Made by a program: the position numbers and the translations under genes. DNA of 64,000 nucleotides. Source: Pirellulales bacterium. Lineage in GTDB: Bacteria > Planctomycetota > Planctomycetia > Pirellulales > PALSA-1355. This document shows positions 45,427 through 64,000 of the stretch, piece after piece. Numbering within the stretch: position 1 is the first letter of the stretch; each line of letters begins with the position of its first letter. Under the pieces are notes generated by a model. That model saw only the letters and a list, made by a program, of their open reading frames with translations, ran no database searches and had not been told where the DNA came from. The stretch lies in NCBI GenBank assembly GCA_022844125.1, contig JALHMI010000009.1, forward strand, positions 186,001 to 250,000, given 5' to 3'.

Positions 45427-46017
45427 TTAACCGGCCGACTTGGCCGACCGATTCCGGTACAGGCTGGGATCCACGACCCCGCACATGGCTGCCTGATCCA
45501 GGTTTCCACCGAGAAAAGCGTCGATCTTGCGCACGATCGGGGCCGGATCCGCCAACATTTCGTGGTACGTCACGTCCAGCGACTTGAAGCACGGTTGTTT
45601 CGCCAGCCAGGCGTCGAAGCGGGAGAGCTCCGCCTGGTAGATGGCCGACATCTCCGCGTCATCAATGTTGTCCACTCGGTTGTCCTTGGCCAGCATCTTC
45701 TGCTGTGAACGCAGGACTTCGTCGAGATTGCGCCGCATGAACACGACTCGATACTCGCGATCGAGCGGCAGGTCGTACAGCAGTCGATAGACCATCTTCA
45801 CGACTTTGCCTTCTGCGCTCGGCACCCACGATGCGTCGCGCTTGGTTTGCTTGACCGGTTCGAACTCATAGTAACCGCGCGGGTTGTCTTGATCGGCTAC
45901 TCGGATGTTGTCGACAAGCACGGGAAGCCCACCGGCTTCGAGCATCCGCATCATCATCGAAGTGCCCGAGCGCGGGAGCCCGCTGACGATTGTGACGAAT
46001 GTAGGAGTATTAGCCAT
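45427..46017 (-). CDS. Small sulfotransferase family protein
   Basis: A 196-residue sulfotransferase-like protein. The 5'-phosphosulfate loop is SGLPRSGTSMMMRMLEAGG near the N-terminus, and the 3'-phosphate-binding region is represented by RVVFMRRNLDEVLRSQ. It is shorter than typical (250-300 residues), though the core appears complete. Members transfer sulfate from PAPS to lipids, carbohydrates or proteins. It is divergent from the megasynthase operon by about 320 nt. Sulfation of the polyketide/lipid product is an attractive but untested idea. Confidence 0.82.
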   Translation of the reverse strand: MANTPTFVTIVSGLPRSGTSMMMRMLEAGGLPVLVDNIRVADQDNPRGYYEFEPVKQTKRDASWVPSAEGKVVKMVYRLLYDLPLDREYRVVFMRRNLDEVLRSQQKMLAKDNRVDNIDDAEMSAIYQAELSRFDAWLAKQPCFKSLDVTYHEMLADPAPIVRKIDAFLGGNLDQAAMCGVVDPSLYRNRSAKSAG

Positions 46018-46335: not shown

Positions 46336-49300
46336 ATGCCGTCTGCGCATTCCATTCATCAATCCAACCATATGCCAAACGCACTTGAGGTTCTTGGAGC
46401 CTCACTTCCCGGCGTTTGTGACCCTTCGCTCCCCTTGGCCGTCGCTCGGTCCGGCGGCGTCGGTATCCTGAACCTTGTACACCATACCGGCGACGCGACT
46501 GCCACGGCGGCCGCCACCGAATTAGGGCGACTGGCCGGCGGTCGCAATGGTCTCATGCTCTCCGCGCGCCTTGCCGCGGTCGAACGTGCGGCTCTCGATG
46601 CCATCGGCCAGGCCGACCTGATCCTGCTGCGAAATTACGACGGAGCCGACTGGTGCGATGCCGTCGCCGCGGTTCGCCTCCATGCTCAGCGAGTGGGCGC
46701 CGTGGTCACTTCGCTCGATGAAGCCCGAGCCGCGATTGCCGCTGGTTGCGAACTCGTCGTCGCCAAAGGTCACGAAGCGGGCGGACTCGTCGGTGAAGAG
46801 ACGAGCTTCGTGCTTGTGCAGGCCTTGCTCACGAATGTCGACGTGCCCGTCTACGTCTGGGGCGGCATCAGTTGGAACACGGCCGCTGCCTGCGCTGCTG
46901 CCGGCTGTGCGGGCGTGCTGCTCGATTGGCAACTCGCCCTCTTGCGTGAGTCGCCGCTCGGCGCGAGCTTCCGCCGCCGCTTGTCGCTGATGGACGGCAG
47001 CGAAGTCGCCACGGTCGCGCTCCCCAATCGTCAATATCTCCGCTTCTATCATCAGCCCGGCATGACCGCCCGGGCATCGATCGACGCACTTATGGTTCGC
47101 GCCGCTTCGATGCGGCCGGAAGAGGTCGAGGACTTCACATCTTCCCTACTCGCGCAGATCGAATCGCTCGCTGCCGAATCGCGCGATCGCGACCGGCTGT
47201 GGCTGACCGGTCAGGACGCTTCGCTGGCGGGCGATTGGGCCCGTCAGGCGCCAAGTGTGGGGCGCGCGCTGCAGTTACTTGCCCAACGTGTCGATTCGCA
47301 AGTCCGCGCCGCGGCCGAAGCACGCATTCTCGATGCCGGCAGTCCGCTCGCTAATTCGCATGGCACTCGCTTTCCGGTCGTGCAAGGTCCGATGACGCGC
47401 GTCAGCGACGTGCCCGAGTTTTGCCACGCCGTGGCGGTCGAAGGCGGCTTGCCGTTCCTGGCCTTGGCGCTGATGGGAGAAGCCCAGGTCCGCTCGCTGC
47501 TGGAGCGCACGAAGGAGCAACTCGGCGACCTTTCCTGGGGTGTCGGCATGCTCGGCTTCGTTCCGCAGGAGATCCGCGCCCAGCAGTGGCCCGTCATTCA
47601 GGAGATTCGTCCCCCATACGCAATCATTGCCGGCGGCCGGCCCGATCAGGCGGCCTCGCTCGAAGCCAACGGCATCGCCACCTACCTGCACGTTCCCTCG
47701 CCGGGCATGCTGGACATGTTTCTCCGGGAAGGCGCACGCCGCTTCGTTTTTGAAGGCCGCGAGTGCGGGGGGCACGTCGGTCCGCGCACCAGCTTTGTGC
47801 TTTGGGAACTGATGGTCCGCGTTCTGTGCGAAGCCAACCTCACGGCCGAAGAGGTCGCCAAGGTCCACGTGCTCTTCGCCGGCGGCATTCACGACCGCCT
47901 CGGCGCGGCAATGGTCTCGGTCCTTGCGCAGCCGTTGGTCGAGCGTGGCATGAAGGTCGGCGTGCTGCTGGGCACGGCCTACCTGTTCACGCACGAGATC
48001 GTGTCCACCGGCGCAATCGTCGAAGGCTTCCAGTCCGTGGCCATCGATATGCAGCATACGATGGTCGTCGAATCCGGGCCCGGTCACGCGGTGCGCTGCG
48101 CCCCGAACGACTTCGTGCATCTCTTCGAGCGCGAGAAGCGGCGGATGATTGCCGATCAGTGTCCGCATGAGGAGATGCGCGCCGAACTCGAGCACTTGAA
48201 CCTGGGCCGGCTGCGCGTCGCAGCCAAGGGCATCCAGCGCGGAGAGCAGGGGGGCGGACTCGTCCAGGTTGACGCCACCGGCCAGCTTCGCGACGGCATG
48301 TACATGATCGGTCAGGTCGCCGCGCTGCGGCAGGGCGCCTGCTCGCTCCGCGAGTTGCATGAGGAAGTCTGCCTGGGCGCCGTCGAAACGCTCGCGGCAC
48401 ATAAGCACCTCGATCTGTTGCCGGCGACGGTCTCTGTTCGGCCCAAGCCGCTGGACATCGCCATCGTCGGCATGTCGTGCCTCGTTCCTGGTGCGACCGA
48501 TCCCTCGCGGCTCTGGCACAACGTGCTGGCCAAGTTCGATCCGATCACCGAGATTCCGGCCGACCGCTTCGAAGTCGATCGCTGGTTCAATGGTGATCGT
48601 AAGGCCCGCGACAAAATCTACGGCCGGTGGGGCGGCTTCGTCGACGATCTGCCGTTCGATCCGCTCAAGTACGGCATTCCGCCCGCGTCGATCCCCAGCA
48701 TCGAGCCGATGCAACTGCTGGCGATGGAACTCGTCGACCGCGCGCTCACCGACGCCGGGTACGCCCCGCACAATCCGTTGCGCGAACGCACCAGCATTAT
48801 CCTGGGCGTCGGCGGCGGCGCGGGCGAGCTTGGTTCGACCTACGCCTTCCGCGCGATGCTGCCGCGGTTCCTCGAGAACCCCGACGAGTCGCTGTGGAAA
48901 CAGTTGCCGGAATGGACCGAAGACAGCTTTGCCGGGATCCTGTTCAACGTGGTCGCCGGACGCGTCAGCAATCGCTTTGACCTTGGCGGCGCCAACTGCA
49001 CGGTCGACGCCGCCTGCGCCTCGTCGCTCTCGGCCTTGTACTGGGCCTGCCATGACCTGGCCAGCGGTAATTGCGACATGGTCATCACCGGCGGCTGCGA
49101 CACGATGCAGAATCCGTTCGGCTATCTGTGCTTTGCCAAGGCGGGGGCCCTTTCGGCATCCGGCCGCGCTCGTGTGTTCGATACCAAGGCCGATGGCATC
49201 GTGATCAGCGAAGGACACGCCGCTGTCGTGCTCAAACGCCGCGAGGACGCCGAGCGCGATGGCGACAAGATCTACGCCGTGATCCGCGCCGTGTCTGGCG

Positions 49301-52300
49301 GCTCCGACGGGCGCAGCATGGGGCTCACCGCGCCGCGCGTGGAAGGCCAGTTGCGCACGCTACGCCGCGCATACGAACAGGCGGGCGTCGATCCGGCCAG
49401 CGTCGCATTGTTTGAAGCCCACGGCACCGGCACTGCCGTTGGCGATCAGACCGAATCACTCTCGCTGACGACGCTGCTCAAGGAAGCCGGCGCACCGCAA
49501 GGCAGTATCGCGGTCGGCAGCATCAAGTCGATGATCGGCCACACCAAGTGTGCGGCCGGCGCCGTGGGGCTGGTCAAAACGATCATGGCGATGCAGCATC
49601 GCGTTCTGCCCCCGACCATGCACGTCGATAGCCCGAACCCCAAGGGCGGCCTCGTCGATGGCCCGCTGTTCGTCAATACCGAGGCGCGCCCCTGGCTCTC
49701 CGCCGACGGTCCACGCCGAGCGGGCGTCTCGTCGTTCGGCTTTGGCGGCACCAACTTTCACGTCCTGCTCGAAGAGTACGATTCGTCCCCGCTCGCCCGA
49801 CCTCTGGTTGCCCGCCATGACAGTGCCTGCGAACTGTTCGTGCTGAGGGCCGACACGTTCGCCGCACTCCGGACCGCCGCCAGGTCTCTCGCCACGGAAG
49901 CCGAAGCTGTGTTGGCGAACAAAATTCCCTCGGGGCTCGCGCGGCTCGCTTACACGCATCATCTCCGCTCGCAGATCGACAAGCCGTGTCAGATGGCGGT
50001 TGTGGCGGGCGAGCTAAACGAACTTGTCGAAGCGCTCCGCGGTTTCGACGGGGCAGTCGACGATCAAGGAAAGGTTAGCGGCCGGCCGCCTGCAACCGTA
50101 TGCTTCACGGCCAAGCCGCTCACCGGCGGCCCAGTTGCAAATGGCAAAGTCGCGTTCCTGTTTCCCGGTCAGGGCTCACAGTTTCCTGGAATGCTCCAGG
50201 AACTCGCCGTCGAGTATTCCGAAGTCGCCGCGTGTTTCCAGCGTGCGGACGACGTGCTGCGGCCCGAGCTGGGACAGGCTCTCAGCCAGGCGATCTTCCC
50301 GCCGAGCGCCTTTACCGACGCAGACCGAACGGCTCAAGTCGAGCGGCTCAAAGACACCCGCCTCGCACAACCGGCACTCGGCGTGAGCGGTCGTGCGATC
50401 GAACAGTTGCTTGCCAGCTTCGGCATACGCCCGCAAATGACCGCCGGACACAGCTTCGGAGAACTCGTGGCCCTGTGCTCGGCCGGGGCGATGAGCGAAA
50501 CCGAGTTGTTCCATCTGGCCGCCGCTCGGGGGCAAGCAATGGCTGCCGGTAGTGCGTCGGGCGGAACGATGCTCGCCGCGGGTGCCGACCAGGCTGCGGT
50601 TGAAAAGCACATCGCTGATCGCACGGATGTCTGGCTGGCGAACTTGAACTCCCCGCGCCAAACCGTCCTGAGCGGAACCGAAGAGGGCATCGCGCACATT
50701 CAGCCGCTGCTCGAAGCTGCAGGGATTACGGCCCGGCGAATCCCCGTCTCGGCGGCATTCCACAGCCCCTTCATGCAGCAGCCGCGAGCCGCGTTCTCCG
50801 AGACGCTGGCTGCCGCGACTTTCACAGCTTCCGAGACACCCGTCTATGCGAACGTGACGGCCGAGCCGTACAGCGGCGAGCCGAGCGACGTACGCGAGCG
50901 GCTGGCTGAGCAGCTAACCGACAAGGTCCGCTGGGTCGAACTGATCGAGAACATGTATCGCGACGGCGCTCGCGTGTTTGTCGAAGTCGGCGCCAAGGGC
51001 GTGTTGACCAGCCTGGTACGCGACATTTTGAAAGATCGCGAGCACGTGGCAGTGGCCACGCAGCCGAATGGCGGCTCCCAAGTCCGGCAGTTCCTGCACG
51101 CTCTTGGGCAGCTCGTCTCTCAAGGCGTGGACATGTCGCTCGATCGGCTCTACGACCGCCGCACGCTCGAACCGCTCACGCGCAAGGAGTTGATCCCCGG
51201 TTCAGGCGACACCTATCCCGCGCACGTGTGGCTCGTCAACGGCGCCTACTCGCGCAAGCTGGGCGCTCCGCTGCGCTCGACCGCGCCTTTGGCGCGGCTC
51301 GGCGCACCCCAGGCCGAGATCACCCAGTCCAATGGCCGTTCGTCAGACGCCACGGACATGCCTCTCCACCGAGTCGCCACTCCGAAACTTTCGCAGATGA
51401 CAAGCGGAATTATGGGTAACGGACACGCAACCAGCGAATACTCAGACGGCAACGGCACCGCCCCTCACACGCATCCCGAGTTGCGCTACGACTCGGCTCA
51501 TGCCGAAGCCCGGCTGGCCGTGAGCGCAACGGCGCCGGCAACTCCTGCTGCCGGTTCGATGGATGGCCATTCGTACGCGCTGTTTCAGGAGACGATGCGC
51601 CAGTTCCTCTCGACACAGCAAACTGTGCTCGCACAATTGTTCGGCGGCGGTCAGCCGCTCTCACACGTCGCCAGTGCCATAGGGAATGCCCAGCCGCATT
51701 ACTCCGAGCCGCAAGACGTTGAACCGGCCGCATCGCGGATCGTCCTAGCGGCGCCGTATGAGCCATCTCCCGTTGGGCCCGCCGCCCCTTCGATGGCACC
51801 GGAGGCCATTGCTTCGAGTCCTGCCGCGGCACCCGCCGTGCCGGCCCAAGCGACTGCGGCGTCCTCCGCTCTGGCCAAACGTGCGACTCGACTTGCAGCC
51901 GATGAGTTGCAGTCGCGCCTGGCGGCCACCGTTGCCGACCGAACCGGCTATCCGGCCGAGATGCTTTCGCTTGATATCAATCTCGAAGGCGAACTCGGCA
52001 TTGATTCGATCAAGCGTGTCGAGATCATCGCCGCCTTCCGCCGCGAAGTGTTGCCCCAGATGCTCGAGCCGCCGGCCGAGTTCATGGAACGCCTGGCCAG
52101 TGCCAAGACGATGCGGCAAATTGTCGATGTCGTGGCCGAGATGGGCGGCGCAAATGATGCAAAAACTCAACCTTCCGTGATGGATTCCCCGGCTATTTCC
52201 GCCGCCGTCGCGATCGATCCCGACGACCTCCTGACCACGCTGCTCCGCATCGTGGCCGACCGCACGGGCTATCCGGCTGAGATGCTAGATTTGGACATCA

Positions 52301-55300
52301 ACCTTGAGGGCGAGCTGGGTATCGACTCGATCAAACGGGTTGAGATCATCGCCGCATTCCGCCGTGAAGTTTTACCCGAGATGCTTGAACCGCCGGCCCA
52401 ATTCATGGAACACCTGGCTGGCGCCAAGACAATGCGCTCGATCATCGATGTGATCGTCGCGATGTCGGACGCGCCCGCCGCCGCGGAGAGTGCGCCTGTC
52501 CAACCGGCGCTCTCGGCGGGCCACGGGGAAAGCGGCTCGTCCCTGGCGGTTGATCCGGCACAACTCCAACCGACGCTCGTACGCATCGTTGCCGACCGCA
52601 CGGGCTATCCGGCCGAGATGCTCACGGGCGACGTCAATCTGGAAAGCGAGTTGGGAATCGACTCAATCAAGCGTGTCGAGATCATCGCCGCCTTCCGCCG
52701 CGAAGTGCGCCCCGACCTGGTCGAAGCGCCCCCCGAACTGATGGAGCGACTGGCTGGCGCTAAGACGGTGCACGCGATCCTGGCGTGCTTCACTGAACCG
52801 GCCACGGCGAAGCCCGCAGCGATCAAGCAGCCAGCCGCCTCCAACGGCAAGCTGGCTTCAGCTCCGGGGGCAGCCGTCGTCGACGTCCATGCCGCCGAAA
52901 TGAGTGACGCTGACGCTTGTCCGCGCTGTGTGGCCGAGATCGTCGATGTTCCGATAGCTCACACTAGCGAGCTTCGCCCCGGCGCCGTGATCGTTGTGGC
53001 CAGTCAGAACGCCGCAGCGAACTCACTAATCAGCGAACTCAAGAGGAAGAACGTGCGCGTCGAGCGCCTGTCCGCGACTGATCTGGTCGACGCCGTCACC
53101 GCCCGAGCAGCCGTTGAGCGGATTCGTCTCGCTGCCGGAAGCATCTCCGCTGCAGCCCACATGTTGGCGCTCGATGAGTGCTCCCCGTGGCCCGAGTGCC
53201 ACAGCTCACTTTGGAACGAGCGATTCAACTGCGAAGTCCGCGGTCTGCTCTTCCTGCTGCAAGCCCTTGAACCGGAAATGGCCGCAACGGGTGACGGTAA
53301 ACTGCGCGTACTCTGTGGCTCGTTTGGCGGCAGCGATTTCGCCACCGATGATTCGGCCTCGCCTGACGCCACGCATCCCTGGCGCGGAGGACTTGCCGGC
53401 CTGCTGAAGGTTGCTGCCTGCGAATGGCCGCAGCATGCGTTCCGAGCGGTCGACTTCACCGAGCAGCCCGATGCAGACGTGCTAGTCCAGGAACTCACCG
53501 CCTCGGGCCCCGTTGAAATCGCCTATCGCGCCGGCCGCCGCTTGCAGATCCAGACTCGCCGGATCGAACTCGCTGAGCCGGCGATCGAAGGTTCGCCCAT
53601 CACGGCCGACAGCACCGTCGTCGTCACGGGCGGCGCCAAGGGAATCACCGCGGCGATTGTCACCGAGCTTGCCAAACGCGTTCCCGGCCGATTCATCCTG
53701 CTGGGCCGCTCGGCGCTGTCCACCGAGGAAGAGTCGCCCGCAACGTCAGCGTTCACTACCGACACCGACCTGCGGAAGGCGATCATCGGCCAGCTGCGCA
53801 CCAGCGGCGAGGCTTGTACGCCCGCGATCGTTGAAGCTCGGCTGTCGGAGATCAAGAGCAACCGGGAAGTGCGCCGCAATCTGGCCGCCATCGCCGAGGC
53901 TGGTGGAGCTGTCGAGTACATCCCGTGCGACATCCGTAATGCCGGCAGCTTGAAGCAGATGCTCGCCGACGTGCAATCTCGCCACGGCGCTGTCCATGGC
54001 ATCATCCACGGCGCGGGCGTCATCGACGATCGAGCGATCAAAGACAAAACCGCCGAGTCGTTCGATCGCGTTGTCCAGACAAAGATCGATCCACTCTTGG
54101 CCCTGCTGGAGAACGTTGATCGCGACGCCCTCAAGCTTGTGGCCCTGTTCTCATCGACTTCCGGCTTTTTCGGCAACTCAGGGCAATGCGATTACGCCGC
54201 GGCCAACGAGGTGCTCAACCGTGTTGCCCGACGGCTTCGCTCCACATGGAACGGCAAGGTCGTATCGTTCAACTGGGGACCGTGGGCCGGCGCGGGCATG
54301 GTCACCGCTGAAGTCGCCACCAAGATGCGTGCCGGGGGCGTGGAGCTGATTCCGCTCTCGGCTGGATGTGCCGCCGCTTGCCGCGAGATGCTCTGTTCCG
54401 ATTCCACTCCGCCGCGGGTCATCATGGGGCGCGGGCCTTGGCTGCAAGACGAACAGCTTCGCGCCGGCTTGGATTTCTCGGCCTACGGCACGCTGTTGGG
54501 TGGACCGCTGGAAAAGTTATCGAATGGCGGGTTCGATGCCCGCGTCGTGCTAGACCGCAATAGCCGCTACCTGCAAGACCATCGCATCGAAGGCAAAGCC
54601 GTCCTGCCGGTTGCCATGGCCGTGGGGCTGATGGCCGAGGCCGCGCACCTCAGTCGTCCCGATTGGCACGTGGCCGCCGTCGAGAACGTGCGGATGCTCA
54701 GCGGAATCACGATTGAGCATGAAACGAGGGAGATCCTGGTCCGCGTTGAGCCGCTCGCGGGCGACGGTCAAACCTGTCGTTGGCAGGTCAGCATTCGGCC
54801 GGTCGAAATGCCACAGCGTATTCTCTACGACGCGCACGTCGAACTGTCCTGCCGGCAACCGGTGGCCCCGGAGGCCAGCTTTCCCGACCCAATAGAAACC
54901 GGCCTCGAGGCCACGGCTAGCGAAGCCTACGACCGCTGGCTGTTCCACGGCCCCAGCTACAAAGTGATTCAGGAATTCGCCGGCGCCGACGAGCGTGGGA
55001 TCGACGCCATCGTTCGTCCCGGTGACGACGGAGCCTCGATGGACGGCGTGCTCGACCACGTCGTGATCGACGCGGCCCCGCAACTGGCCATGATCTGGTC
55101 ACGGGCCCTGTTCGACGTCGCCGTGCTTCCGAACCGAATTTCGAGTTATCGAGTGTATGGGCCGATGGGCGCCGGCGAAGTCGAAATGAAGCTTCGCATT
55201 CGTCCCGGCAACGATCGCCAGGTTTACAACGCGGATGTTTGGATCGTTCGTGACGGGCGCCTCATCGCGCACATGGAAGGCCTGGAAGGCGCAGGTAGTC

Positions 55301-55332
55301 CACAATTGAATCGTATCGCCGTCCAGCTTTAA
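46336..55332 (+). CDS. PUFA-synthase-like megasynthase: NMO-NMO-KS-AT-ACPx3-KR-DH
   Basis: A 2998-residue iterative type I synthase. Order: nitronate-monooxygenase/PfaD-like half 1 (about 10-300) and half 2 (about 340-690, with GRECGGHVG, His480), ketosynthase (about 705-1150; Cys894, His1029, His1069), acyltransferase (about 1270-1590; Ser1373 in GHSFG, AAFHSP suggesting malonyl-CoA), a flexible linker, three ACPs (phosphopantetheine sites Ser1891, Ser1998, Ser2110 in LGIDSIKRVEI), ketoreductase (about 2165-2680; TGGAKGIT, Tyr2620) and a hotdog dehydratase (about 2735-2990; His2749). KS-AT-ACPn-KR-DH is the PfaA order, and LGIDSIKRVEI is typical of PUFA-synthase ACPs; the front fusion to enoyl-reductase-like barrels is unusual. 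The product is probably a reduced or polyunsaturated long acyl chain. Start chosen at 46336 for its GGAG box. Confidence 0.93.
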   Translation: MPSAHSIHQSNHMPNALEVLGASLPGVCDPSLPLAVARSGGVGILNLVHHTGDATATAAATELGRLAGGRNGLMLSARLAAVERAALDAIGQADLILLRNYDGADWCDAVAAVRLHAQRVGAVVTSLDEARAAIAAGCELVVAKGHEAGGLVGEETSFVLVQALLTNVDVPVYVWGGISWNTAAACAAAGCAGVLLDWQLALLRESPLGASFRRRLSLMDGSEVATVALPNRQYLRFYHQPGMTARASIDALMVRAASMRPEEVEDFTSSLLAQIESLAAESRDRDRLWLTGQDASLAGDWARQAPSVGRALQLLAQRVDSQVRAAAEARILDAGSPLANSHGTRFPVVQGPMTRVSDVPEFCHAVAVEGGLPFLALALMGEAQVRSLLERTKEQLGDLSWGVGMLGFVPQEIRAQQWPVIQEIRPPYAIIAGGRPDQAASLEANGIATYLHVPSPGMLDMFLREGARRFVFEGRECGGHVGPRTSFVLWELMVRVLCEANLTAEEVAKVHVLFAGGIHDRLGAAMVSVLAQPLVERGMKVGVLLGTAYLFTHEIVSTGAIVEGFQSVAIDMQHTMVVESGPGHAVRCAPNDFVHLFEREKRRMIADQCPHEEMRAELEHLNLGRLRVAAKGIQRGEQGGGLVQVDATGQLRDGMYMIGQVAALRQGACSLRELHEEVCLGAVETLAAHKHLDLLPATVSVRPKPLDIAIVGMSCLVPGATDPSRLWHNVLAKFDPITEIPADRFEVDRWFNGDRKARDKIYGRWGGFVDDLPFDPLKYGIPPASIPSIEPMQLLAMELVDRALTDAGYAPHNPLRERTSIILGVGGGAGELGSTYAFRAMLPRFLENPDESLWKQLPEWTEDSFAGILFNVVAGRVSNRFDLGGANCTVDAACASSLSALYWACHDLASGNCDMVITGGCDTMQNPFGYLCFAKAGALSASGRARVFDTKADGIVISEGHAAVVLKRREDAERDGDKIYAVIRAVSGGSDGRSMGLTAPRVEGQLRTLRRAYEQAGVDPASVALFEAHGTGTAVGDQTESLSLTTLLKEAGAPQGSIAVGSIKSMIGHTKCAAGAVGLVKTIMAMQHRVLPPTMHVDSPNPKGGLVDGPLFVNTEARPWLSADGPRRAGVSSFGFGGTNFHVLLEEYDSSPLARPLVARHDSACELFVLRADTFAALRTAARSLATEAEAVLANKIPSGLARLAYTHHLRSQIDKPCQMAVVAGELNELVEALRGFDGAVDDQGKVSGRPPATVCFTAKPLTGGPVANGKVAFLFPGQGSQFPGMLQELAVEYSEVAACFQRADDVLRPELGQALSQAIFPPSAFTDADRTAQVERLKDTRLAQPALGVSGRAIEQLLASFGIRPQMTAGHSFGELVALCSAGAMSETELFHLAAARGQAMAAGSASGGTMLAAGADQAAVEKHIADRTDVWLANLNSPRQTVLSGTEEGIAHIQPLLEAAGITARRIPVSAAFHSPFMQQPRAAFSETLAAATFTASETPVYANVTAEPYSGEPSDVRERLAEQLTDKVRWVELIENMYRDGARVFVEVGAKGVLTSLVRDILKDREHVAVATQPNGGSQVRQFLHALGQLVSQGVDMSLDRLYDRRTLEPLTRKELIPGSGDTYPAHVWLVNGAYSRKLGAPLRSTAPLARLGAPQAEITQSNGRSSDATDMPLHRVATPKLSQMTSGIMGNGHATSEYSDGNGTAPHTHPELRYDSAHAEARLAVSATAPATPAAGSMDGHSYALFQETMRQFLSTQQTVLAQLFGGGQPLSHVASAIGNAQPHYSEPQDVEPAASRIVLAAPYEPSPVGPAAPSMAPEAIASSPAAAPAVPAQATAASSALAKRATRLAADELQSRLAATVADRTGYPAEMLSLDINLEGELGIDSIKRVEIIAAFRREVLPQMLEPPAEFMERLASAKTMRQIVDVVAEMGGANDAKTQPSVMDSPAISAAVAIDPDDLLTTLLRIVADRTGYPAEMLDLDINLEGELGIDSIKRVEIIAAFRREVLPEMLEPPAQFMEHLAGAKTMRSIIDVIVAMSDAPAAAESAPVQPALSAGHGESGSSLAVDPAQLQPTLVRIVADRTGYPAEMLTGDVNLESELGIDSIKRVEIIAAFRREVRPDLVEAPPELMERLAGAKTVHAILACFTEPATAKPAAIKQPAASNGKLASAPGAAVVDVHAAEMSDADACPRCVAEIVDVPIAHTSELRPGAVIVVASQNAAANSLISELKRKNVRVERLSATDLVDAVTARAAVERIRLAAGSISAAAHMLALDECSPWPECHSSLWNERFNCEVRGLLFLLQALEPEMAATGDGKLRVLCGSFGGSDFATDDSASPDATHPWRGGLAGLLKVAACEWPQHAFRAVDFTEQPDADVLVQELTASGPVEIAYRAGRRLQIQTRRIELAEPAIEGSPITADSTVVVTGGAKGITAAIVTELAKRVPGRFILLGRSALSTEEESPATSAFTTDTDLRKAIIGQLRTSGEACTPAIVEARLSEIKSNREVRRNLAAIAEAGGAVEYIPCDIRNAGSLKQMLADVQSRHGAVHGIIHGAGVIDDRAIKDKTAESFDRVVQTKIDPLLALLENVDRDALKLVALFSSTSGFFGNSGQCDYAAANEVLNRVARRLRSTWNGKVVSFNWGPWAGAGMVTAEVATKMRAGGVELIPLSAGCAAACREMLCSDSTPPRVIMGRGPWLQDEQLRAGLDFSAYGTLLGGPLEKLSNGGFDARVVLDRNSRYLQDHRIEGKAVLPVAMAVGLMAEAAHLSRPDWHVAAVENVRMLSGITIEHETREILVRVEPLAGDGQTCRWQVSIRPVEMPQRILYDAHVELSCRQPVAPEASFPDPIETGLEATASEAYDRWLFHGPSYKVIQEFAGADERGIDAIVRPGDDGASMDGVLDHVVIDAAPQLAMIWSRALFDVAVLPNRISSYRVYGPMGAGEVEMKLRIRPGNDRQVYNADVWIVRDGRLIAHMEGLEGAGSPQLNRIAVQL
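51907..52795 (+). repeat. Three tandem acyl-carrier-protein repeats
   Basis: Three ACP modules of about 107-112 residues per period share RTGYPAEML, LGIDSIKRVEI and IAAFRREV almost unchanged, with high DNA identity in the core, separated by Ala/Pro/Ser linkers. Tandem ACPs raise the output of PUFA synthases. The third copy is the most divergent after the serine (RPDLVEAPPEL). Confidence 0.92.
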
Positions 55333-55342: not shown

Positions 55343-58300
55343 ATGAAATTTAGCCCGCGACCTGAACATCAGGAGCGCGCCGAAGACATCGCGATCGTCG
55401 GAATGTCGTGCCTGGTTCCCGGCGCTGCGGGGCCTGCGCGCTTCTGGCAGAACGTGATCGGCAAGGTCGACGCCATCACCGACGCGCCGCCAGACTGGCA
55501 GCCGGAGTGGTTCTACGACCCAGCGGGCCCCGCGGTCGATCGCAGTTATACGCGCCGTGGCGGGTTTCTGGGCGACTTGTGCCGTTTCCATCCGCCCAAG
55601 TACGGGGTGCCTCCCACCGCGGTCGAAGGCGCCGAGCCGGATCACTTCATCGCGCTCAAGTGCGCTTTCGAAGCAATGGCCGACGCCGGCGCGCCGGAGA
55701 TCCCGATTAACCGCGCGAAGACGGGCGTCATCCTCGGCCGTGGCCTGTTCGTCAACCGCGGCTGGGTCGCGGTTTTCCAACGCACGGTGGCCGTCGATCA
55801 ACTCGTCCACGTGCTCGGTCAGCTTGAGCCGGACCGCTCGCCGGAGGATCTCGACACGATCCGCCGAGAACTCAAGAAACGCCTCCCGCCGGCGAATGCC
55901 GATACCTTCCCGGGCCTGGTTCACAGCGCGCTCGTCGGGCGGATCGCCAATCGGCTGGATCTGCATGGGCCAGCCTACACGGTCGACGCTGCCTGTTCGT
56001 CCACGCTGCTCGCCGTCGAGCACGGCATCCGCGAGCTGCAGGGCGGCAGTTGTGATGCGGTCCTCGTGGGCGGTTCGCAGGTGTCGACGCCCGCGCCGAT
56101 CCACATCATGTTCTGCCATTTGAATGCGCTCAGTCGCGAAGGAAAGATCGCCCCCTTCTCGCCCGAGGCCGAAGGCACCGTGCTCGGCCAGGGCTGCGGC
56201 ATCCTCCTGCTCAAGCGCAAGAGCGACGCGGTGCGTGATGGCAATCGGATCTATGCCCTGATCAAAGGCGCTGGCACATCGTCCGACGGCAAGGGCGCGG
56301 GCCTGCTGGCTCCGCGAACCGAAGGCCAGCAGCTTTCGATCGAACGTGCCTACGAGATGGCCGGCGTGTCGCCTGACACCGTGGGCCTGGTCGAAGCTCA
56401 TGGCACCGGCATTCCGCTGGGTGACGCCGTCGAAATCAATTCCCTCAAAACCTGCTTCGGTCCGCGCCGCGGCGAACATCCGCACGTGGCCATCGGCAGC
56501 GTGAAGTCGATGGTCGGCCACCTGGTACCGGCCTCGGGCGCCGTCTCGCTCATCAAGACTGCGCTGGCGCTGCACCATCGCGTGCTGCCGCCGATGCTGC
56601 ACGCCGAGACGGCAAATCCGGCCCTAAAGCTCGACGAATCGCGTTTCTTCCTGTGCACGGAGCCGCGCCCCTGGATTCACGGCGGCAGCGAATCGCCGCG
56701 CCGCGCCGGCGTCAACGCCTTCGGTTTTGGCGGCATCAATGCTCACGTGCTTCTGGAAGAGTATCAGGGCGAAGCGACCGACGACGCGGACTTCGAACGC
56801 GAGTGGTCCCACGAACTGGTGGTCATCTCGGCCGACTCCCGCGAAGCACTTTCTCAGCGTGTATCCAAGCTCGCCGAGTGGGTCGAGCGCAGCACTGGCA
56901 TGACGTTGCTCGACGTGGCTGCCAGCGCCAGTCGCTGGAGCGGCAAGCATCGCCTGGCAGTCGTCGCAGGCAGCCTTGAAGAACTGACCAGGAAACTCAC
57001 CCGCGTCGCGCCGCTACTGGTCGATCCCAAACGCGAGAAGATCCAGGATCGCGGCGGCGTGTTCTGGTACGACCAGCCGCTCGCCCGCGATGGCCGCGTG
57101 GCGCTCGTCTTCCCGGGCGAAGGTTCGCAATACGTCAACATGCTCGGTGATCTTTGCCGGCACTTCCCGATCGTCCGTCGCGAGTTCGATCTGACCAGCC
57201 GAGCGTTCGAATCCAAAGGCACTTCGCTCGCCCGGGTGCTGTTCCCGCAGCCGGCGACTGCCGCGGCCGCGGAAACCGAACTCTTCGAGATGGACACGGC
57301 CGTGGCCTCGGTCACGGCCGCCGCGCGGGGACTGTGGCGGTTGCTGGGATCTCTTGGCGTACAGGCCGACGCCGTCGTCGGACATAGCAGCGGTGAGTAC
57401 GCGGCGCTGTTGGCGGCCGGCGCTTACGAGCACGACGACGACAGCGCGATGCAGCACGCCATCGAAGCGGGCATCGACTCGGCCGTCGAGCTTAAATCGT
57501 CCGGTCTGCTACCCCAGAGCGTTTTGGTCTCCGTCGGCGGCGTGCCGGAAGCCACGCTCGACGCGGTCCTGGCCGAAGAGTCGGCCGAAGTCACGGTGGC
57601 GATCGACAACTGCCCACACCAGAAGATTCTCGTCGGCAGCGAAGCGGCCATGTCGCGACTGCTGCTCAAGCTGCAAGGCAAGGGCGGCCTCTGCCAGCGC
57701 CTGGCGTGGGATCGTCCTTATCACACTGATGCGTTCGCGCCGGCGTGCGAGATCGTTAAACGCTATTTCGATTCGCTCAAGCTGCGTGCCCCGCAGGTTG
57801 AACTTTGGTCGTGTGCTACGGCAGCCCAGATGCCGGCCGACGCCGAGGCGGTTCGCGAGTTGGCCGTACGCCAATGGCGGAGCAAGGTCTGCTTCCGCGA
57901 GACAGTGCTGGCCATGCACGAAGCTGGTGTCCGTGTGTTCATCGAGTGTGGCCCACGCGGCAACCTTTCGACTTTCGTGGCCGACAGCTTGGGCGATAAG
58001 CCGCATGCCGCGGTGCCGCTCGATGTGCCGAATCGCGGCGGCCTGGAACAACTCTGCCGCTCCTTGGGAACGCTGGTCGCGCACGGCGTCGATGTCGATC
58101 TCGCGCCGTTGTTCGTCCGTCGCAGTCCGCTGACTCTCGATCTGGAAGGCCCCCCGCACGTCGCTCCGCCGGAAGAGCCTATTCTGCGGCTCGACCTGCC
58201 GATGCTCGAACTCGATGCCGAGGCGGTTGCCAAGTGGCAAGCCGACGCTCCGCGCCTGGCAGTCTCACCGGCGCCGGCTCAGAACGGAACGTACAACGGT

Positions 58301-60445
58301 CACGCCGCGGAAGTTCTTCCTGCACATGGTCCCGTGCAACAACCCGTGAGCCCTGGCATCCAGCCGACACCGCGCGCGACGGTCAGTTCGGGGACAAATG
58401 GTCACCACGCACCCGCGGTGCAGCCGATGCCGGCGCGTTCGCAGTCGATCGCCCAGGCGGCCCATGCTGATTTCCAGCGCACGATGCAGCAGTTCCTCGA
58501 CCTGCAAGTCACGGTCGGGGCATTTCGCGGAGGTCAGCAGGCAATTGCCGAGCCGCCGCGTCGTATCGAAGTCGCGCCTGCGGCCACGCACGCTCGCTTG
58601 CAGCCAGTCTTCGCTCCGCGTTCCAACGGCTCGGCCCCGGCCATTCCGGACAGGATGTCGGCTGTAGCTCATCAGGTCGTTCCGGCCGTCTCGCCGCCGC
58701 CGAGCAACACTTCGGCCGCGCCACCGAGAAACACGTCCCCCGCGTCCCCGCGGCAGTATCCTTTCCCCTTCGTCGAGTCGATCCTCGAGCACACCGCCGA
58801 ACGCGTCGTGTTCGAGTGCGAGTTGACTCCCGAAAAGCATCCGTTCCTGAAGCATCACACCTTCTTTGGCAGCCGCGTGTCGGACCGCCACCCGGAGCTC
58901 ACGCCGCTACCGATCATGCCGCTGGCGATGAGCATGGAGCTGTTGGCCGAAGCAGCCGCGATGCTGGCTCCTCAATTGTCCGTCGTAGCGCTCAGTGACA
59001 TCAGCGTCTCGCGCTGGCTGGCGTTCCCTGGTCAGTCGCGCCGCGTGCGAGCCGTCGCTCGGTTGGTGAATGATCAAACCGTCGATGCCCGGCTGCTCGA
59101 GGCCGATGGTGACGCGGAGCACGAGATTGCCGCGGCCACGGTTGAACTCGGCGAACTTCCCGAGACGCTCGGCGCCCCGCGACTTTCGCGGCCCTCCGCC
59201 GGTCCGCCCCCTTGGAAGCCCGAGGCGGTCTACCAGCAAATTCTTTATCACGGTCCGGCGTTTCGCGGCATCGACGAGATCGAGTCGTGGGGCGAACGTG
59301 CCATCGCTGCCCGCGTTCAAGAGCCCAAGACGCCGCTGCTTGCTTCCGTGGCCCGCGGCTCGTTGATCCTGCCGGTGGCTCTGGTAGACACCGCCTCGCA
59401 GATTCCCGGTCTCACGAACGGCGATCTCGAATCGGCCGGCGCAACCTGCATCATGGCCTTCCCGAACACGATCGGCCGGCTTGAGTTCGCCCGCGGCGTG
59501 TTTTCAGGCGAACCGCTGGCGGCCGTTTCGCAATTCGAGATGGTTCCCGGCAAGCTCAACTCCGACACCGAGTTCGTCGACGGTCGCGGCCAGGCCGTGC
59601 TGCGCTATCTGAAGCGAGTTGAAGAGACGGTTCCGTTTCCGCTGCCGCTTTATCGCTACGCGTTGAACCCGCACACGGCTTTCAAGGAACGTTCGCTCAA
59701 CGACCTGTTTAGGGATGTGCCCGGAGCGGATCGGGTCTCCATTTGCGAAGCCACGGCCGGCGGCGAGCGCCTGTGGATTAAGGGCATCTGGGCTCGCATG
59801 CTCGCCTATCAGATTCTCAGCCCCGACGAGCGGGCGGCGTTCAATCGCCAGAAGTTGCCGCCGGTGGCCCTGGCCGACTGGCTGCTGGGCCGTCTCGCCG
59901 CCAAAGAAGCCGTGCGTGCGAGACTCCAGCACGGCGGCTGCCACGCAGACACCGAGATTCGCAATGACGTCGAGGGACGCCCCGAGGCTTGGATCGACGG
60001 AGAGCGCGCCGCGGACATCAGCCTGGCACACAAGACCTTCGAGGCCGTGGCTGTCGCGGCAATGCCCGGCGAGTTTCGCGGCCTGGGCATCGACTGCGAA
60101 CCGCTGGACCCCCTTCCCGCGGAAGTCCTGGCCGACGCCTTCACCGACGCAGAACGCCAACTCATCGCCTCCGCCGGCGATGCCACCGCTTGGGCTCGCG
60201 CCGGCTGGGGAGCAAAAGAGGCCGCAGGCAAGGCGCTCGGGCGCGGTGTGCTCGGCGGGCCGCGGAATGTCGTCATCAAATCCGTCGACCAGAAGACTCG
60301 CAGCCTGACACTGTCCCTGCGTGGTCAAATGGCCGAGGCCTTCCCCGAATTCAGTGAGGGGCGCACTCCAATCACCGCGCATTGGCGGCAGCTCCGCAAT
60401 CAAATCATCGTTTTGTGCATCTTGCCGATGGAGAAACTCACATGA
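55343..60445 (+). CDS. Partner synthase: KS-AT-DH-phosphopantetheinyl transferase
   Basis: A 1700-residue protein starting 10 nt after the megasynthase. Ketosynthase (about 15-475; Cys218 in DAACSST, His353, His393), acyltransferase (about 585-900; FPGEGSQ, Ser682 in GHSSG, RPYHTDAF), a Pro/Ala/Gln linker, a hotdog-fold dehydratase (about 1150-1420; His1171/His1172 near KHHTFFG, then LPIMP and VDTASQ) and a C-terminal Sfp-type phosphopantetheinyl transferase (about 1490-1690; GIDCEP with Asp1584 and Glu1586, and WGAKEAAGKA with Lys1625). It has no ACP of its own and must use those of the first synthase or the next gene. PfaC also pairs KS with dehydratase, but a KS-AT-DH-PPTase chain combines PfaB, PfaC and PfaE roles. 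Its stop overlaps the ACP start (ATGA). Confidence 0.92.
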   Translation: MKFSPRPEHQERAEDIAIVGMSCLVPGAAGPARFWQNVIGKVDAITDAPPDWQPEWFYDPAGPAVDRSYTRRGGFLGDLCRFHPPKYGVPPTAVEGAEPDHFIALKCAFEAMADAGAPEIPINRAKTGVILGRGLFVNRGWVAVFQRTVAVDQLVHVLGQLEPDRSPEDLDTIRRELKKRLPPANADTFPGLVHSALVGRIANRLDLHGPAYTVDAACSSTLLAVEHGIRELQGGSCDAVLVGGSQVSTPAPIHIMFCHLNALSREGKIAPFSPEAEGTVLGQGCGILLLKRKSDAVRDGNRIYALIKGAGTSSDGKGAGLLAPRTEGQQLSIERAYEMAGVSPDTVGLVEAHGTGIPLGDAVEINSLKTCFGPRRGEHPHVAIGSVKSMVGHLVPASGAVSLIKTALALHHRVLPPMLHAETANPALKLDESRFFLCTEPRPWIHGGSESPRRAGVNAFGFGGINAHVLLEEYQGEATDDADFEREWSHELVVISADSREALSQRVSKLAEWVERSTGMTLLDVAASASRWSGKHRLAVVAGSLEELTRKLTRVAPLLVDPKREKIQDRGGVFWYDQPLARDGRVALVFPGEGSQYVNMLGDLCRHFPIVRREFDLTSRAFESKGTSLARVLFPQPATAAAAETELFEMDTAVASVTAAARGLWRLLGSLGVQADAVVGHSSGEYAALLAAGAYEHDDDSAMQHAIEAGIDSAVELKSSGLLPQSVLVSVGGVPEATLDAVLAEESAEVTVAIDNCPHQKILVGSEAAMSRLLLKLQGKGGLCQRLAWDRPYHTDAFAPACEIVKRYFDSLKLRAPQVELWSCATAAQMPADAEAVRELAVRQWRSKVCFRETVLAMHEAGVRVFIECGPRGNLSTFVADSLGDKPHAAVPLDVPNRGGLEQLCRSLGTLVAHGVDVDLAPLFVRRSPLTLDLEGPPHVAPPEEPILRLDLPMLELDAEAVAKWQADAPRLAVSPAPAQNGTYNGHAAEVLPAHGPVQQPVSPGIQPTPRATVSSGTNGHHAPAVQPMPARSQSIAQAAHADFQRTMQQFLDLQVTVGAFRGGQQAIAEPPRRIEVAPAATHARLQPVFAPRSNGSAPAIPDRMSAVAHQVVPAVSPPPSNTSAAPPRNTSPASPRQYPFPFVESILEHTAERVVFECELTPEKHPFLKHHTFFGSRVSDRHPELTPLPIMPLAMSMELLAEAAAMLAPQLSVVALSDISVSRWLAFPGQSRRVRAVARLVNDQTVDARLLEADGDAEHEIAAATVELGELPETLGAPRLSRPSAGPPPWKPEAVYQQILYHGPAFRGIDEIESWGERAIAARVQEPKTPLLASVARGSLILPVALVDTASQIPGLTNGDLESAGATCIMAFPNTIGRLEFARGVFSGEPLAAVSQFEMVPGKLNSDTEFVDGRGQAVLRYLKRVEETVPFPLPLYRYALNPHTAFKERSLNDLFRDVPGADRVSICEATAGGERLWIKGIWARMLAYQILSPDERAAFNRQKLPPVALADWLLGRLAAKEAVRARLQHGGCHADTEIRNDVEGRPEAWIDGERAADISLAHKTFEAVAVAAMPGEFRGLGIDCEPLDPLPAEVLADAFTDAERQLIASAGDATAWARAGWGAKEAAGKALGRGVLGGPRNVVIKSVDQKTRSLTLSLRGQMAEAFPEFSEGRTPITAHWRQLRNQIIVLCILPMEKLT

Positions 60446-60793: not shown

Positions 60794-62371
60794 ATGAGAA
60801 CCGTGCTGTTTGGATTAGACGGCGCAACGTATAGCGTGCTCGACCCGCTCATGGAACAAGGGCTCATGCCGAACTTGCAGAAGTGCCGCGCCGCTGGCGT
60901 GCGCTGTCTGCTCGAGTCGACACCGCTGCCGATCACGCCGCAGGCCTGGACTACTCTAGCCACCGGTCGCAGCATGGGGCATCACGGCATTCACGACTTC
61001 GTCCGCGTCGAACAGACCGATAGCGGCATCATCCTCCGCTTCAATACCGGTCGCGATCGCCACGTGCCGACGATCTGGAAGTACCTCTCCGATTGCGGCA
61101 AACGCATCACCGCGCTCAACTACTACGGCCTCGCCCCAGCAGAGCCCGTCAATGGCCACACGATGCCGGGCTTTGTGCCGGGTCGCTATTTGAAGCGCTC
61201 CAGCTTCCCGGCCGACCTGTTCAGCCGGCTCGAGCAGGTGCCGCATTTCGACGTCGGTGTCCTGGGACTCGATCTCGACATTGAGAAAGAGGGCCTGGCC
61301 GAGATGCCGCCCGATCGCTGGGAAGAGTGGATTCAGCTCCACATCGAGCGCGAACGAGCCTGGTTCGCCACGATGGAGTACCTGATGGAGCACGAGCCCA
61401 GCGACCTGACGGCGATCGTCTTCGACGGTGTCGACAAGCTCCAGCACCTGGCTTACCGTTTCCTTGATCCCAAGTATGTGCCGGCCAATCCCACGCCCTG
61501 GGAGGCCAAGATCATTAAACTGTGCCACAGTTACTTCAAGCAGATTGACAACTTCCTCGGTCGCACGCTTGAGCTGCTCGGCGAAGATGGCCGACTGTTC
61601 ATCGCCTCGGATCACGGCTTCACGGCCAGTGACGAGATCCTTTACATCAATAAGTACCTGCACGACCTCGGTCACCTGCGGTGGAACGGCGAAGTCGACG
61701 TCGACGAGAACGAATCGATCGTCGTCGAGCGGCTTACGAAGCAAATGGGCCTTTACGACTGGCGCAACACGCGTGCCGCGGCCCTCACACCGAGTTGCAA
61801 CGGCGTGTACATCCTCAACGTGCCGGCGGACGAGTACGAAGCCTTCCGCGACAAGCTGATCGAGGAGCTCTATGCCCTGCGCGGCGAGGACGGCGGTCAG
61901 GTCATTACGGAAGTCAAGAAGCGCGAAGACTGGTTTGCCGGACCCTGGATGCATCGCGCCCCGGATCTGACGCTCACGCTGCGCGATCATGGTTTCCTCT
62001 CCGTTCTCAACGGCACCGACGCCGTTGTCCCGCGCAAGTCCCCCGTCGGTACGCACCATCCGCTCGGCGTCTTGTGGGGCGTGGGGCCAGGTCTCAAGGT
62101 GAACGCCACCGCCAAACAGTGCAACATCCTCGACGTGGCCTCGCTGCTGGTGCACAGTGTGGGCGTCGAGATTCCGGCCGAGTACGAAGGTAAGTTCCCG
62201 GCCGACCTGTACGAGGAAAGCTACCTGGCGGCGAATCCGCCGAACGTCTCCTGGGGCGAGAAGGCCGCGCCGGCCGCCGCCGAAGTCCAGGTTGCCCAGC
62301 AGGACACGATGGACTCCGAGGAGGAGCTTGTGCTCACTCAGCGTCTCCGCAGCCTGGGGTACATCGAATAA
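60794..62371 (+). CDS. Alkaline-phosphatase-superfamily phosphodiesterase
   Basis: A 525-residue protein of the type I phosphodiesterase/nucleotide pyrophosphatase family. Metal and catalytic elements are in order: GLDGAT (metal Asp), PQAWTTLATG (nucleophile Thr), FDGVDKLQH (metal Asp/His), ASDHGF (metal Asp/His) and GTHHPLG (metal His). No signal peptide is visible, so a cytoplasmic site is likely. The C-terminus ends QRLRSLGYIE, a tail often seen in this family. Similar genes occur near polyketide and lipid clusters, and a role in cleaving or transferring a phosphoryl head group is inferred. The ATG at 60794 with AGGTG upstream is preferred over a GTG at 60785. Confidence 0.88.
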   Translation: MRTVLFGLDGATYSVLDPLMEQGLMPNLQKCRAAGVRCLLESTPLPITPQAWTTLATGRSMGHHGIHDFVRVEQTDSGIILRFNTGRDRHVPTIWKYLSDCGKRITALNYYGLAPAEPVNGHTMPGFVPGRYLKRSSFPADLFSRLEQVPHFDVGVLGLDLDIEKEGLAEMPPDRWEEWIQLHIERERAWFATMEYLMEHEPSDLTAIVFDGVDKLQHLAYRFLDPKYVPANPTPWEAKIIKLCHSYFKQIDNFLGRTLELLGEDGRLFIASDHGFTASDEILYINKYLHDLGHLRWNGEVDVDENESIVVERLTKQMGLYDWRNTRAAALTPSCNGVYILNVPADEYEAFRDKLIEELYALRGEDGGQVITEVKKREDWFAGPWMHRAPDLTLTLRDHGFLSVLNGTDAVVPRKSPVGTHHPLGVLWGVGPGLKVNATAKQCNILDVASLLVHSVGVEIPAEYEGKFPADLYEESYLAANPPNVSWGEKAAPAAAEVQVAQQDTMDSEEELVLTQRLRSLGYIE

Positions 62372-63264
62372 TGCCCATCACAGGCGTATCCAACCAGGGT
62401 GTGAAGATCTCCTGCCGCTCGACCACGCCGGTCGAGTCCGGTCGGACCGCGCTTTTCATCCACGGTTTGAATACGAACCTGGCCTTCTGGCATCCGCTGA
62501 TCGTGCGGCAACTCGCCGCCGATCGACTCGTCCTCTGTTACGACCAGCGCGGCCACGGCGGTAGCGATATGCCGGCCACAGGCTACACGCTCGACCACCA
62601 GGTCGGCGACGCGCTGGCCGTGCTCGATGCGCACGAAGTCGCCGCCGCCGACGTCATCGCCCACAGCTTTGGCGCCGGTGTCGCGCTGCAACTTGCTCGC
62701 AAGCATCCAGATCGAGTGCGAACGATCACGGTGCTCGACGGTCGGATCCGCTCGATTCAAGGCGTCGTCCGCCTGGGCGATTGGGAGCACTTTCCGCGCT
62801 GGAGCCGGCAGCTTGCCGATGCCGGCATGACCGTCGACCCTACCTGGGAAATCGACTGCCGGCTCCCCGTTCGGCTCGAGGCCGTCGACTTCTCGCGCGT
62901 CTCCGGAGTCCTCGAAGCCGACGGTTTCTTCGTCCCGCGTCTGACCAACAAGCGCGCGGGTCAGAAGTACCGTAGATTGATCGCAGAAACGACGGCCTTC
63001 GAAGACTACGACCGCTGTGTTGGCCTGACGCGCGATGTGCTTTGCGAGATTCACCAGCCCACGCTGCTGGTTTACGGCACGCACTCGCCGTTCGTCCCCA
63101 GTTGCGAGATCCTCGCCGCCGAGATGCCCAACGTCCATGTTGAGCTGATCGCAGGCGCCGGCCACAATTTTCCGCTGTCGTTGCCCGAGCCGACGCTCCG
63201 CGCGCTCGCGGCCTGGCCGCCGCTCGGTGTCACGACTTCCGAAGTCTCTGAACTGACAAGTTAA
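62371..63264 (+). CDS. Alpha/beta hydrolase
   Basis: A 297-residue alpha/beta-hydrolase. The oxyanion HG is in FIHGLNTN, the nucleophile is Ser in IAHSFGAG, and the catalytic His is in GAGHNFPLS. The acid after strand 7, usually G-x-x-D, reads YGTHSPF without Asp; the Asp in VLDGR after strand 6 could take over, as in some hydrolases. It starts within the stop codon of the phosphodiesterase gene (TAATG), so translation is coupled. In a synthase operon it is a natural candidate for a thioesterase or product-releasing hydrolase, but this is inference. Confidence 0.88.
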   Translation: MPITGVSNQGVKISCRSTTPVESGRTALFIHGLNTNLAFWHPLIVRQLAADRLVLCYDQRGHGGSDMPATGYTLDHQVGDALAVLDAHEVAAADVIAHSFGAGVALQLARKHPDRVRTITVLDGRIRSIQGVVRLGDWEHFPRWSRQLADAGMTVDPTWEIDCRLPVRLEAVDFSRVSGVLEADGFFVPRLTNKRAGQKYRRLIAETTAFEDYDRCVGLTRDVLCEIHQPTLLVYGTHSPFVPSCEILAAEMPNVHVELIAGAGHNFPLSLPEPTLRALAAWPPLGVTTSEVSELTS

Positions 63265-63276: not shown

Positions 63277-64000
63277 ATGGCTCAGTCCGAATCGACCATT
63301 CAAGTGCCGAACACCTGGTACGACGACGTGCTGTTCAAGCCGTTGTACCTGGAGTTCTACGAGCACAGCGATTTCGCCAATTTCGGCCTGTGGGACGAAG
63401 CCACGACCGGCCCACGCCAGGCCTGCGAAAACCTGGTGAACCGTCTGCAATCGCTGCTCCGCGACCAGCGGGGCACGATTCTCGACGTCGCCTGCGGCAA
63501 GGGCGAGACCACCCGCTGCCTGCTTGCCAACTATGCGCCCGAGGCGATCACAGCGATCAACATTTCGGAGCGTCAGGTCGAGCACGGCCGCACCCTTGTG
63601 CCGGGCGCGGTCTTCCGCTGCATGGACGCCGTGAACATGGACTTTGCCGACGAGTCGTTCGACAACATCATCTGCGTCGAGGCGGCGTTTCATTTCGACA
63701 CCCGCGAAAAGTTTCTGCGCGAGGCGCTGCGCGTGCTCAAGCCCGGCGGTACGCTGGCGCTCAGCGACATCCTCATGACACTTGAGGGCGAACGTGCCCG
63801 GCCGTATCGAACCGAGGCCAACTACCTGCCCGGCATCGAAGCGTATCGCGCACTTATCGAGGGTGCCGGTTTTACCAACGTGCGGATTGAAGACGTCACC
63901 GAGCAGTCGTGGTTTCCGTTCTTCCGCTACACCGTCAACTTTCTGCACGAGAAGTTCCTTCGCCGCCAGATCGACGAACCGACCCTCAAACGGCACCTCG
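63277..64000 (+). CDS. SAM-dependent methyltransferase (3' end outside window)
   Basis: The frame is open from ATG 63277 to the window end (241 codons seen). It is a class I methyltransferase of the Methyltransf_11 type: motif I LDVACGKGETT, then INISERQVEHG, DAVNMDFADESFDNI and KPGGTLALSD (motif post II). It follows the hydrolase by 12 nt and belongs to the same operon. The N-terminus (YDDVLFKPLYLEFYEHSDFANFGLW) resembles methyltransferases that act on small-molecule or polyketide substrates; O- or C-methylation of the synthase product is inferred. Confidence 0.9.
   Translation, partial: MAQSESTIQVPNTWYDDVLFKPLYLEFYEHSDFANFGLWDEATTGPRQACENLVNRLQSLLRDQRGTILDVACGKGETTRCLLANYAPEAITAINISERQVEHGRTLVPGAVFRCMDAVNMDFADESFDNIICVEAAFHFDTREKFLREALRVLKPGGTLALSDILMTLEGERARPYRTEANYLPGIEAYRALIEGAGFTNVRIEDVTEQSWFPFFRYTVNFLHEKFLRRQIDEPTLKRHL

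Follow-up and report, generated by a model that had tools for sequence, protein, structure and literature searches.

A probable planctomycete lipid synthase with two fused FabK-type reductase barrels, one of which looks catalytically dead

A megasynthase gene in a Pirellulales bacterium encodes two reductase-type barrels ahead of a PfaA-related ketosynthase core, and we find that this fused reductase is of the FabK type and that only one of its two barrels looks active. The architecture is common and poorly characterised, and what we offer is a corrected reading of it. The gene lies on contig JALHMI010000009.1 of assembly GCA_022844125.1, in a stretch of 64,000 nucleotides that was analysed as a whole and is called the window below. 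The fused gene (gene 1) is laid out as follows, with KS, AT, ACP, KR and DH standing for ketosynthase, acyltransferase, acyl carrier protein, ketoreductase and dehydratase:

46336..55332, + strand: fused synthase gene 1, barrel1-barrel2-KS-AT-ACPx3-KR-DH, 2998 aa
46381..47055, + strand: barrel 1, compact FabK-fold TIM barrel; Leu151 at the catalytic-His position, no motif I, predicted inactive
47332..48390, + strand: barrel 2, FabK-like enoyl reductase; motif I QGPMTRVSD, motif III GRECGGH with His480
48454..49899, + strand: KS with C-terminal extension (Pfam), Cys-His-His present
50155..51129, + strand: AT (Pfam), with GHSFG
51913..52785 (outer limits approximate), + strand: three ACP domains, Ser1891, Ser1998 and Ser2110
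53614..54288, + strand: KR (Pfam), motif YAAAN
54493..55287, + strand: PKS-type DH, halves PF21089 and PF14765, no FabA-like match

The frame is open throughout from a GTG at 46171 to the stop at 55332, and the ATG at 46336 gives a product of 2998 residues with no internal stop. Pfam places nitronate monooxygenase (NMO) matches in two stretches ahead of the KS (residues 707-1097), which is followed by the KS extension (1100-1188), AT (1274-1598), three PP-binding domains, KR (2427-2651), and PKS_DH_N from residue 2720 with a PS-DH second half after it. The original prediction of two reductase-type barrels ahead of KS-AT-ACPx3-KR-DH in a single chain is borne out by the open frame and these matches, and the two NMO stretches, together with a predicted FabK/NMO fold, agree with its assignment of the N-terminal 690 residues to the NMO family. 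It had also described the catalytic residues from KS through DH and the three ACPs as present, and a motif search finds them: VDAACAS, EAHGTGT and GHTKCAAG in the KS, GHSFG and FHSPF in the AT, three GIDS serines in the ACPs, and in the DH His2749 within HxxxGxxxxP plus Asp2912. These patterns, and that of the KR, are the usual catalytic motifs of such domains. The KS cysteine pattern is present in 74 of 83 fused KS domains and 36 of 39 gene-2 KS domains. Judged by its motifs, the gene 1 product is apparently a real and intact enzyme.

Comparison with relatives rests on 91 loci. Eighty come from a genome scan that yielded at least 586 relatives, of which we retained the best 80 as ranked by their similarity to the tandem as a whole, a choice biased towards tandem forms; the set is completed by three loci from plasmids and eight from planctomycetes, the window's own among the latter. 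Two of the loci (L020 and L033) are the same in sequence, and the 91 loci reduce to 90 rows at 99% identity and to 74 at 70%. Barrel 1 is followed by barrel 2 in 91/91 (that is, in the best 80 of at least 586 relatives and in the 11 others), and a KS comes next in 90, the contig of the last (L038) ending before that point. Since the same order recurs in 90 of 91 loci, drawn from many assemblies and including complete records (Singulisphaera acidiphila and a Beijerinckia plasmid), the chance that the frame is an assembly artefact fusing two genes is negligible, and we rule this explanation out.

Both barrels have, on the predicted models, the FabK/nitronate monooxygenase fold. A model of the tandem reached pLDDT 94.7 and pTM 0.94 (alignment of 56 rows), and the best fold match of barrel 2 was FabK (Z 37.8, rmsd 1.9 over 302 residues), with PfaD behind it at Z 33.0 and rmsd 2.8 over 326 residues. 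Fold matches to the tandem were mainly to barrel 2, so barrel 1 was folded and searched separately; alone it gave pLDDT 93.1 and a FabK-type match (Z 23.1, rmsd 3.6 over 243 residues). Both halves score weakly with the NCBIfam FabK model (36 and 61 bits), whose cut-off is 453. The PfaD model TIGR02814 finds no match in the host genome at E<=0.001, and PF21607, the helical insertion of PfaD, is absent from the Pfam matches of gene 1 and found in a PfaD of Singulisphaera used as a control. The description of the two halves as NMO/PfaD-like therefore holds for NMO, by Pfam and fold search, and fails for PfaD by curated model and insertion, barrel 2 also being less close in fold to PfaD than to FabK. 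FabK and nitronate monooxygenases share the fold of both barrels, and motifs I and III with barrel 2, but are stand-alone enzymes, whereas here the barrels are fused.

The reductases of thraustochytrids carry a motif I, APMxG, and a motif III, xEAGGH, the latter with the proposed catalytic histidine (PMC13311796). Barrel 2 has both motifs; barrel 1 has GHEAGGL at the motif III site and no motif I. Across the 91 loci the catalytic position of barrel 1 is occupied by R in 44, W in 20, L in 8, V and F in 5 each, K and I in 2 each, and S, Y, H, A and Q in 1 each, while that of barrel 2 is His in all 91. With the one duplicate removed, the histidine is present in 1 of 90 rows for barrel 1 and 90 of 90 for barrel 2, although the relatives were found with patterns from barrel 2 (ECGGH, QGPM), so that the conservation of its histidine is partly selected and the figure for barrel 1 is not. 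Where we place motif I of barrel 1 in the alignment, a methionine occurs in 1 of 91 rows. Barrel 1 is also the faster-diverging of the two in these alignments: mean pairwise identity (4005 pairs) is 38% for barrel 1 and 58% for barrel 2, and columns conserved at 95% or more number 14 of 209 and 83 of 332, respectively. A tree of the barrels has very long branches, and its outside sequences come from 3 of 10 loci (two PfaD and one doubtful NMO).

Because barrel 1 lacks both the catalytic histidine and motif I, one enoyl reductase is predicted to be active, not the two that were originally proposed, and barrel 1 looks catalytically dead in nearly all of the relatives examined. If instead both barrels were active, on different substrates or in different cycles, their fusion might set the order of reduction, as the original prediction suggested. 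Such a reading could appeal to the FabK fold of both barrels and to the retention of barrel 1 in 91 of 91 loci with its conserved GxExGG and GGI motifs, but it would leave the near-absence of the histidine and the motif I methionine, and the faster divergence of barrel 1, unaccounted for, and we consider it unlikely. The GxExGG and GGI motifs might mean that barrel 1 still binds FMN or another ligand. The one locus of the 91 with the catalytic histidine in barrel 1 (L056, GNESGGHVG) could represent the ancestral state or a reversion. The family-wide loss of the catalytic residues of barrel 1 might be a point new to specialists. Titles and abstract openings of open-licence papers yielded no published account of such a tandem or degenerate reductase beyond the fused pfaDA of PMC13291983.

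The kinship of gene 1 with PfaA is clear from the TIGR02813 model, which it matches at 1250.5 bits against a cut-off of 1010.1, and from a KS tree (IQ-TREE, 76 KS rows, of which 40 fused KS rows were hand-picked). All 40 fused KS lie on one side of a branch with support of 100/98, ten PfaA-type KS form their own group (100/99), and the two sets lie together (100/100), apart from the KS of gene 2. The fused KS thus make up one clade adjoining the PfaA-type KS, in line with the kinship that was originally expected, with the reservation that the outside row is very long, so that the rooting is unsure and so is the term sister. The PfaA-type KS in the tree come from Fischerella, Paludisphaera, Singulisphaera and Actinomadura, and 10/10 have a PfaD above the TIGR02814 cut-off within about 10 kb. 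Members from Micromonospora and Actinomadura fall within the fused clade, as does the KS of Beijerinckia (L007), on another branch than the window's KS. The grouping is most simply explained by one old lineage, not a local accident. The genome of L068 (Solimonas fluminis) holds a second, divergent fused copy (L129), whose KS branches with an actinobacterial and L088/L027 group.

Gene 2, which starts ten bases past gene 1, is its PfaBC-like neighbour and bears on what the pair might make:

55343..60445, + strand: gene 2, KS-AT-DH-PPTase, 1700 aa; one KS only, no ACP match

Its phosphopantetheinyl transferase (PPTase) is an ACPS domain at its end, and its single KS stretch has the Cys. Gene-2 domains follow the fused gene in 53 of the 55 loci that have a KR in frame and 2.5 kb or more of DNA beyond it; in L030 and L031, which both adjoin the window's KS in the tree, none is found in the 3.9 and 4.5 kb examined. 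One might expect from the TIGR02813 score and the neighbouring clade of PfaA-type KS that the cluster is a PUFA synthase in which PfaD and PfaA are joined and whose product is a polyunsaturated fatty acid. But the PfaD model and the PfaD insertion are missing, as set out above, and neither gene 1 nor gene 2 has a FabA-like dehydratase/isomerase (DH/I), the only dehydratase matches being PF21089 and PF14765. Nor was a second KS (the chain length factor, CLF) found in gene 2, each of the two genes having one. The Singulisphaera control, by comparison, has a PfaBC in which four FabA-like (PF07977) stretches accompany two KS stretches and an AT. Without a CLF or a FabA-like DH/I, a methylene-interrupted PUFA is an unlikely product, and on these counts, with the PfaD model and insertion, we reject a PUFA synthase with a fused PfaD as quite improbable. 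Of the original label, PUFA-synthase-like, the kinship to PfaA survives and the implied product does not. Annotation by the TIGR02813 model alone would mislead here, since gene 1 scores above its cut-off and the PUFA-type parts are lacking.

The fused gene is widespread. Its hosts include Planctomycetota, Acidobacteriota, Cyanobacteriota, Pseudomonadota, Actinomycetota, Chloroflexota, Thermodesulfobacteriota and Lentisphaerota, among others. In a sample of 392 genomes of one phylum it occurs in 8, the host included, and in 0 of the 11 other genomes of the host's order; a second genome sample added one fused gene in that order, in a genome designated G409. The synthase is also present in Candidatus Brocadia, which are anammox planctomycetes (L033/L020 and L070; L022-L024 belong to the same family), and phosphodiesterase genes lie near it in L020 and L022-L024. 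Although one might think of ladderane lipids, a link to them is speculation, because the synthase family is far wider than Candidatus Brocadia.

Fusion had been put forward as a departure from known systems, and here the original prediction does not hold: the layout is old, already known from many bacteria, and the window protein is not the first of its sort. Fused pfaDA with a pfaBC ending in a PPTase has been described in Aquimarina sp. TRL1 and Flavobacterium sp. N502540 (PMC13291983), whose authors liken these clusters to that of Renibacterium salmoninarum, a Type M member in the scheme of Shulse and Allen, who set out 20 types of secondary lipid synthase (PMC3098273); another pfaD-pfaA fusion is reported from Ottowia (PMC13291983). 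Compared by their description, these clusters share with ours a reductase ahead of a PfaA-like protein and then a PfaBC-like gene ending in a PPTase, but those of Aquimarina and Flavobacterium carry PKS-NRPS genes, unlike the window's cluster. PUFA synthases of the PfaA/PfaD kind, and the PfaA-type synthases found in heterocystous cyanobacteria, share the KS-AT-ACPn-KR core and the neighbouring KS clade, and differ in having a separate PfaD.

Another parallel in layout is Beijerinckia indica ATCC 9039, where a plasmid carries the fused gene (barrel1-barrel2-KS-AT-ACP-ACP-KR), then two chalcone-synthase-type proteins, then a DH-PPTase protein. Its gene order is that expected of arsABCD, of which we take ArsA and ArsD to be the synthase parts. 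In Type P, which comprises Azotobacter vinelandii and this Beijerinckia strain, the product is phenolic-lipid chains such as behenic acid, and Beijerinckia was not found to make phenolic lipids (PMC3098273). The published listing gives no locus, and we infer that the plasmid genes are the cluster listed as Type P. The arsABCD operon is named in PMC4314083, and a review states that ArsA can hand the fatty acids bound to its ACP straight to the type III PKSs ArsB and ArsC (PMC6274091). The likeness to our genes, seen in the Beijerinckia sequence, lies in the synthase gene and its DH-PPTase partner. The differences are that on the plasmid the synthase genes are separated by two type III PKS genes, and that the DH-PPTase partner there lacks a KS or AT, both of which gene 2 has. 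Among the 91 loci, within the DNA examined, a type III PKS lies beside the fused gene in L007, L008, L050, L084 and L087 only. The host genome has no type III PKS match (PF02797, E<=0.001), so that the analogy with Type P concerns the synthase and not the product, and we reject an alkylresorcinol made by a type III PKS as the product here. Two papers on planctomycete metabolites gave no passage on hglE, PUFA or type I PKS.

We think it fairly probable that the two genes together encode an iterative type I "secondary lipid" synthase that builds a long, largely reduced chain, with barrel 2 as the reductase and barrel 1 as its partner, and that the chain is then tailored by enzymes of the cluster. 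The domains, motifs, predicted fold, kinship and gene order behind this model are computed, and from them we infer the cycle, the chain length, the degree of reduction, the tailoring and the role of barrel 1. In such a cycle the terminal PPTase of gene 2 would activate the three tandem ACPs, on which the gene 1 AT (AT1) would place malonyl units, and the KS domains of genes 1 and 2 would extend the chain. The KR and PKS-type DH domains would then give a trans-2-enoyl-ACP, to be reduced by barrel 2 with FMN and His480. Barrel 1 would probably do no chemistry, serving as a built-in partner of barrel 2 and standing where a FabK-like dimer would have its second subunit. By analogy with the phenolic-lipid type of Azotobacter the chain might be C22-C26 and largely reduced, and its release and tailoring would fall to the hydrolase, phosphodiesterase, methyltransferases, short-chain dehydrogenases/reductases (SDRs) and oxygenase of the cluster. 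Enediyne synthases also use KS-AT-ACP-KR-DH layouts, and this shared layout, together with an oxygenase, SDRs and methyltransferases among the neighbours, could instead suggest a polyene or enediyne-type synthase whose chain stays partly unreduced and whose reductase acts rarely. We regard that as improbable, given that the reductase is fused to the synthase itself and that behenic acid, the Type P product, is saturated (PMC3098273).

The neighbouring genes in the window that may belong with a synthase for a tailored, largely reduced lipid are these:

45427..46017, - strand: sulfotransferase-family protein, divergent from the synthase; counterparts near the fused gene in L031 and L104
60785..62371, + strand: type I phosphodiesterase family; 54% identical counterpart near the G409 synthase genes
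62371..63264, + strand: alpha/beta hydrolase; similar gene in 11 loci, no match in G409
63277..64000, running beyond the window end, + strand: SAM methyltransferase; the same-strand gene run continues

Outside the window (locus L010) the run continues, on the same strand and often with overlaps, through a protein of 809 residues (P809), a second methyltransferase, two SDRs, an esterase and a TauD-like oxygenase. We compared 50 kb around the synthase genes of G409, which belongs to the host's order and another family. Identities there are 51/42% for the fused gene, 55/40% for gene 2, 41% for a second phosphodiesterase besides the one listed, 40% for P809, 52% for an SDR, 47% for the second methyltransferase and 58% for the esterase; the first methyltransferase matches weakly (21%), at the end of P809. 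No counterpart was found in those 50 kb for the hydrolase, the TauD oxygenase, the sulfotransferase or the HlyD and TolC export genes, which leaves the limits of the cluster unsure. Counterparts among the loci examined number at least nine for the phosphodiesterase, at least eleven for the hydrolase, at least three for P809 and at least four for the esterase, counts that are lower bounds because many loci have little downstream DNA. The hydrolase is a possible release enzyme. The sulfotransferase is a possible cluster member, its counterparts reaching 51% identity in L031 and 45% (across 123 aa) in L104, and it might be a sign of a sulfated product. P809, encoded at L010:5083-7512, stays without a Pfam match even at E 1. 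By eye it shows LYVGT-like repeats, which suggest a beta-propeller, and towards its C-terminus it resembles the methyltransferase next to it; its relatives are in G409, L025, L080 and L094. Elsewhere in the host genome (G000:C15:58841-69502) a second megasynthase frame of 3769 aa has two KS-region matches to the PfaA model plus AT, ACP and KR-region matches, and resembles a single-gene Pfa-like synthase.

These results describe a planctomycete lipid cluster that is partly conserved between two families of one order, and they make a match to the PfaA model, taken alone, no ground for calling such proteins PUFA synthases. The two barrels recall ERb and ERc of thraustochytrids, two paired reductase barrels of one synthase, with the difference that those are separate chains that both keep the histidine (PMC13311796), whereas here the supposed pair is in one chain and one member is without it. 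It is tempting to go further and see a phylum-crossing synthase lineage with a covalent pseudo-heterodimeric reductase, in which a dead FabK-type barrel precedes a live one and is kept for the dimer interface or as a dock for the ACP. We find this plausible, if a little short of likely. If true, it would place a pseudoenzyme partner within an iterative megasynthase, unlike the separate and equally equipped ERb and ERc of thraustochytrids.
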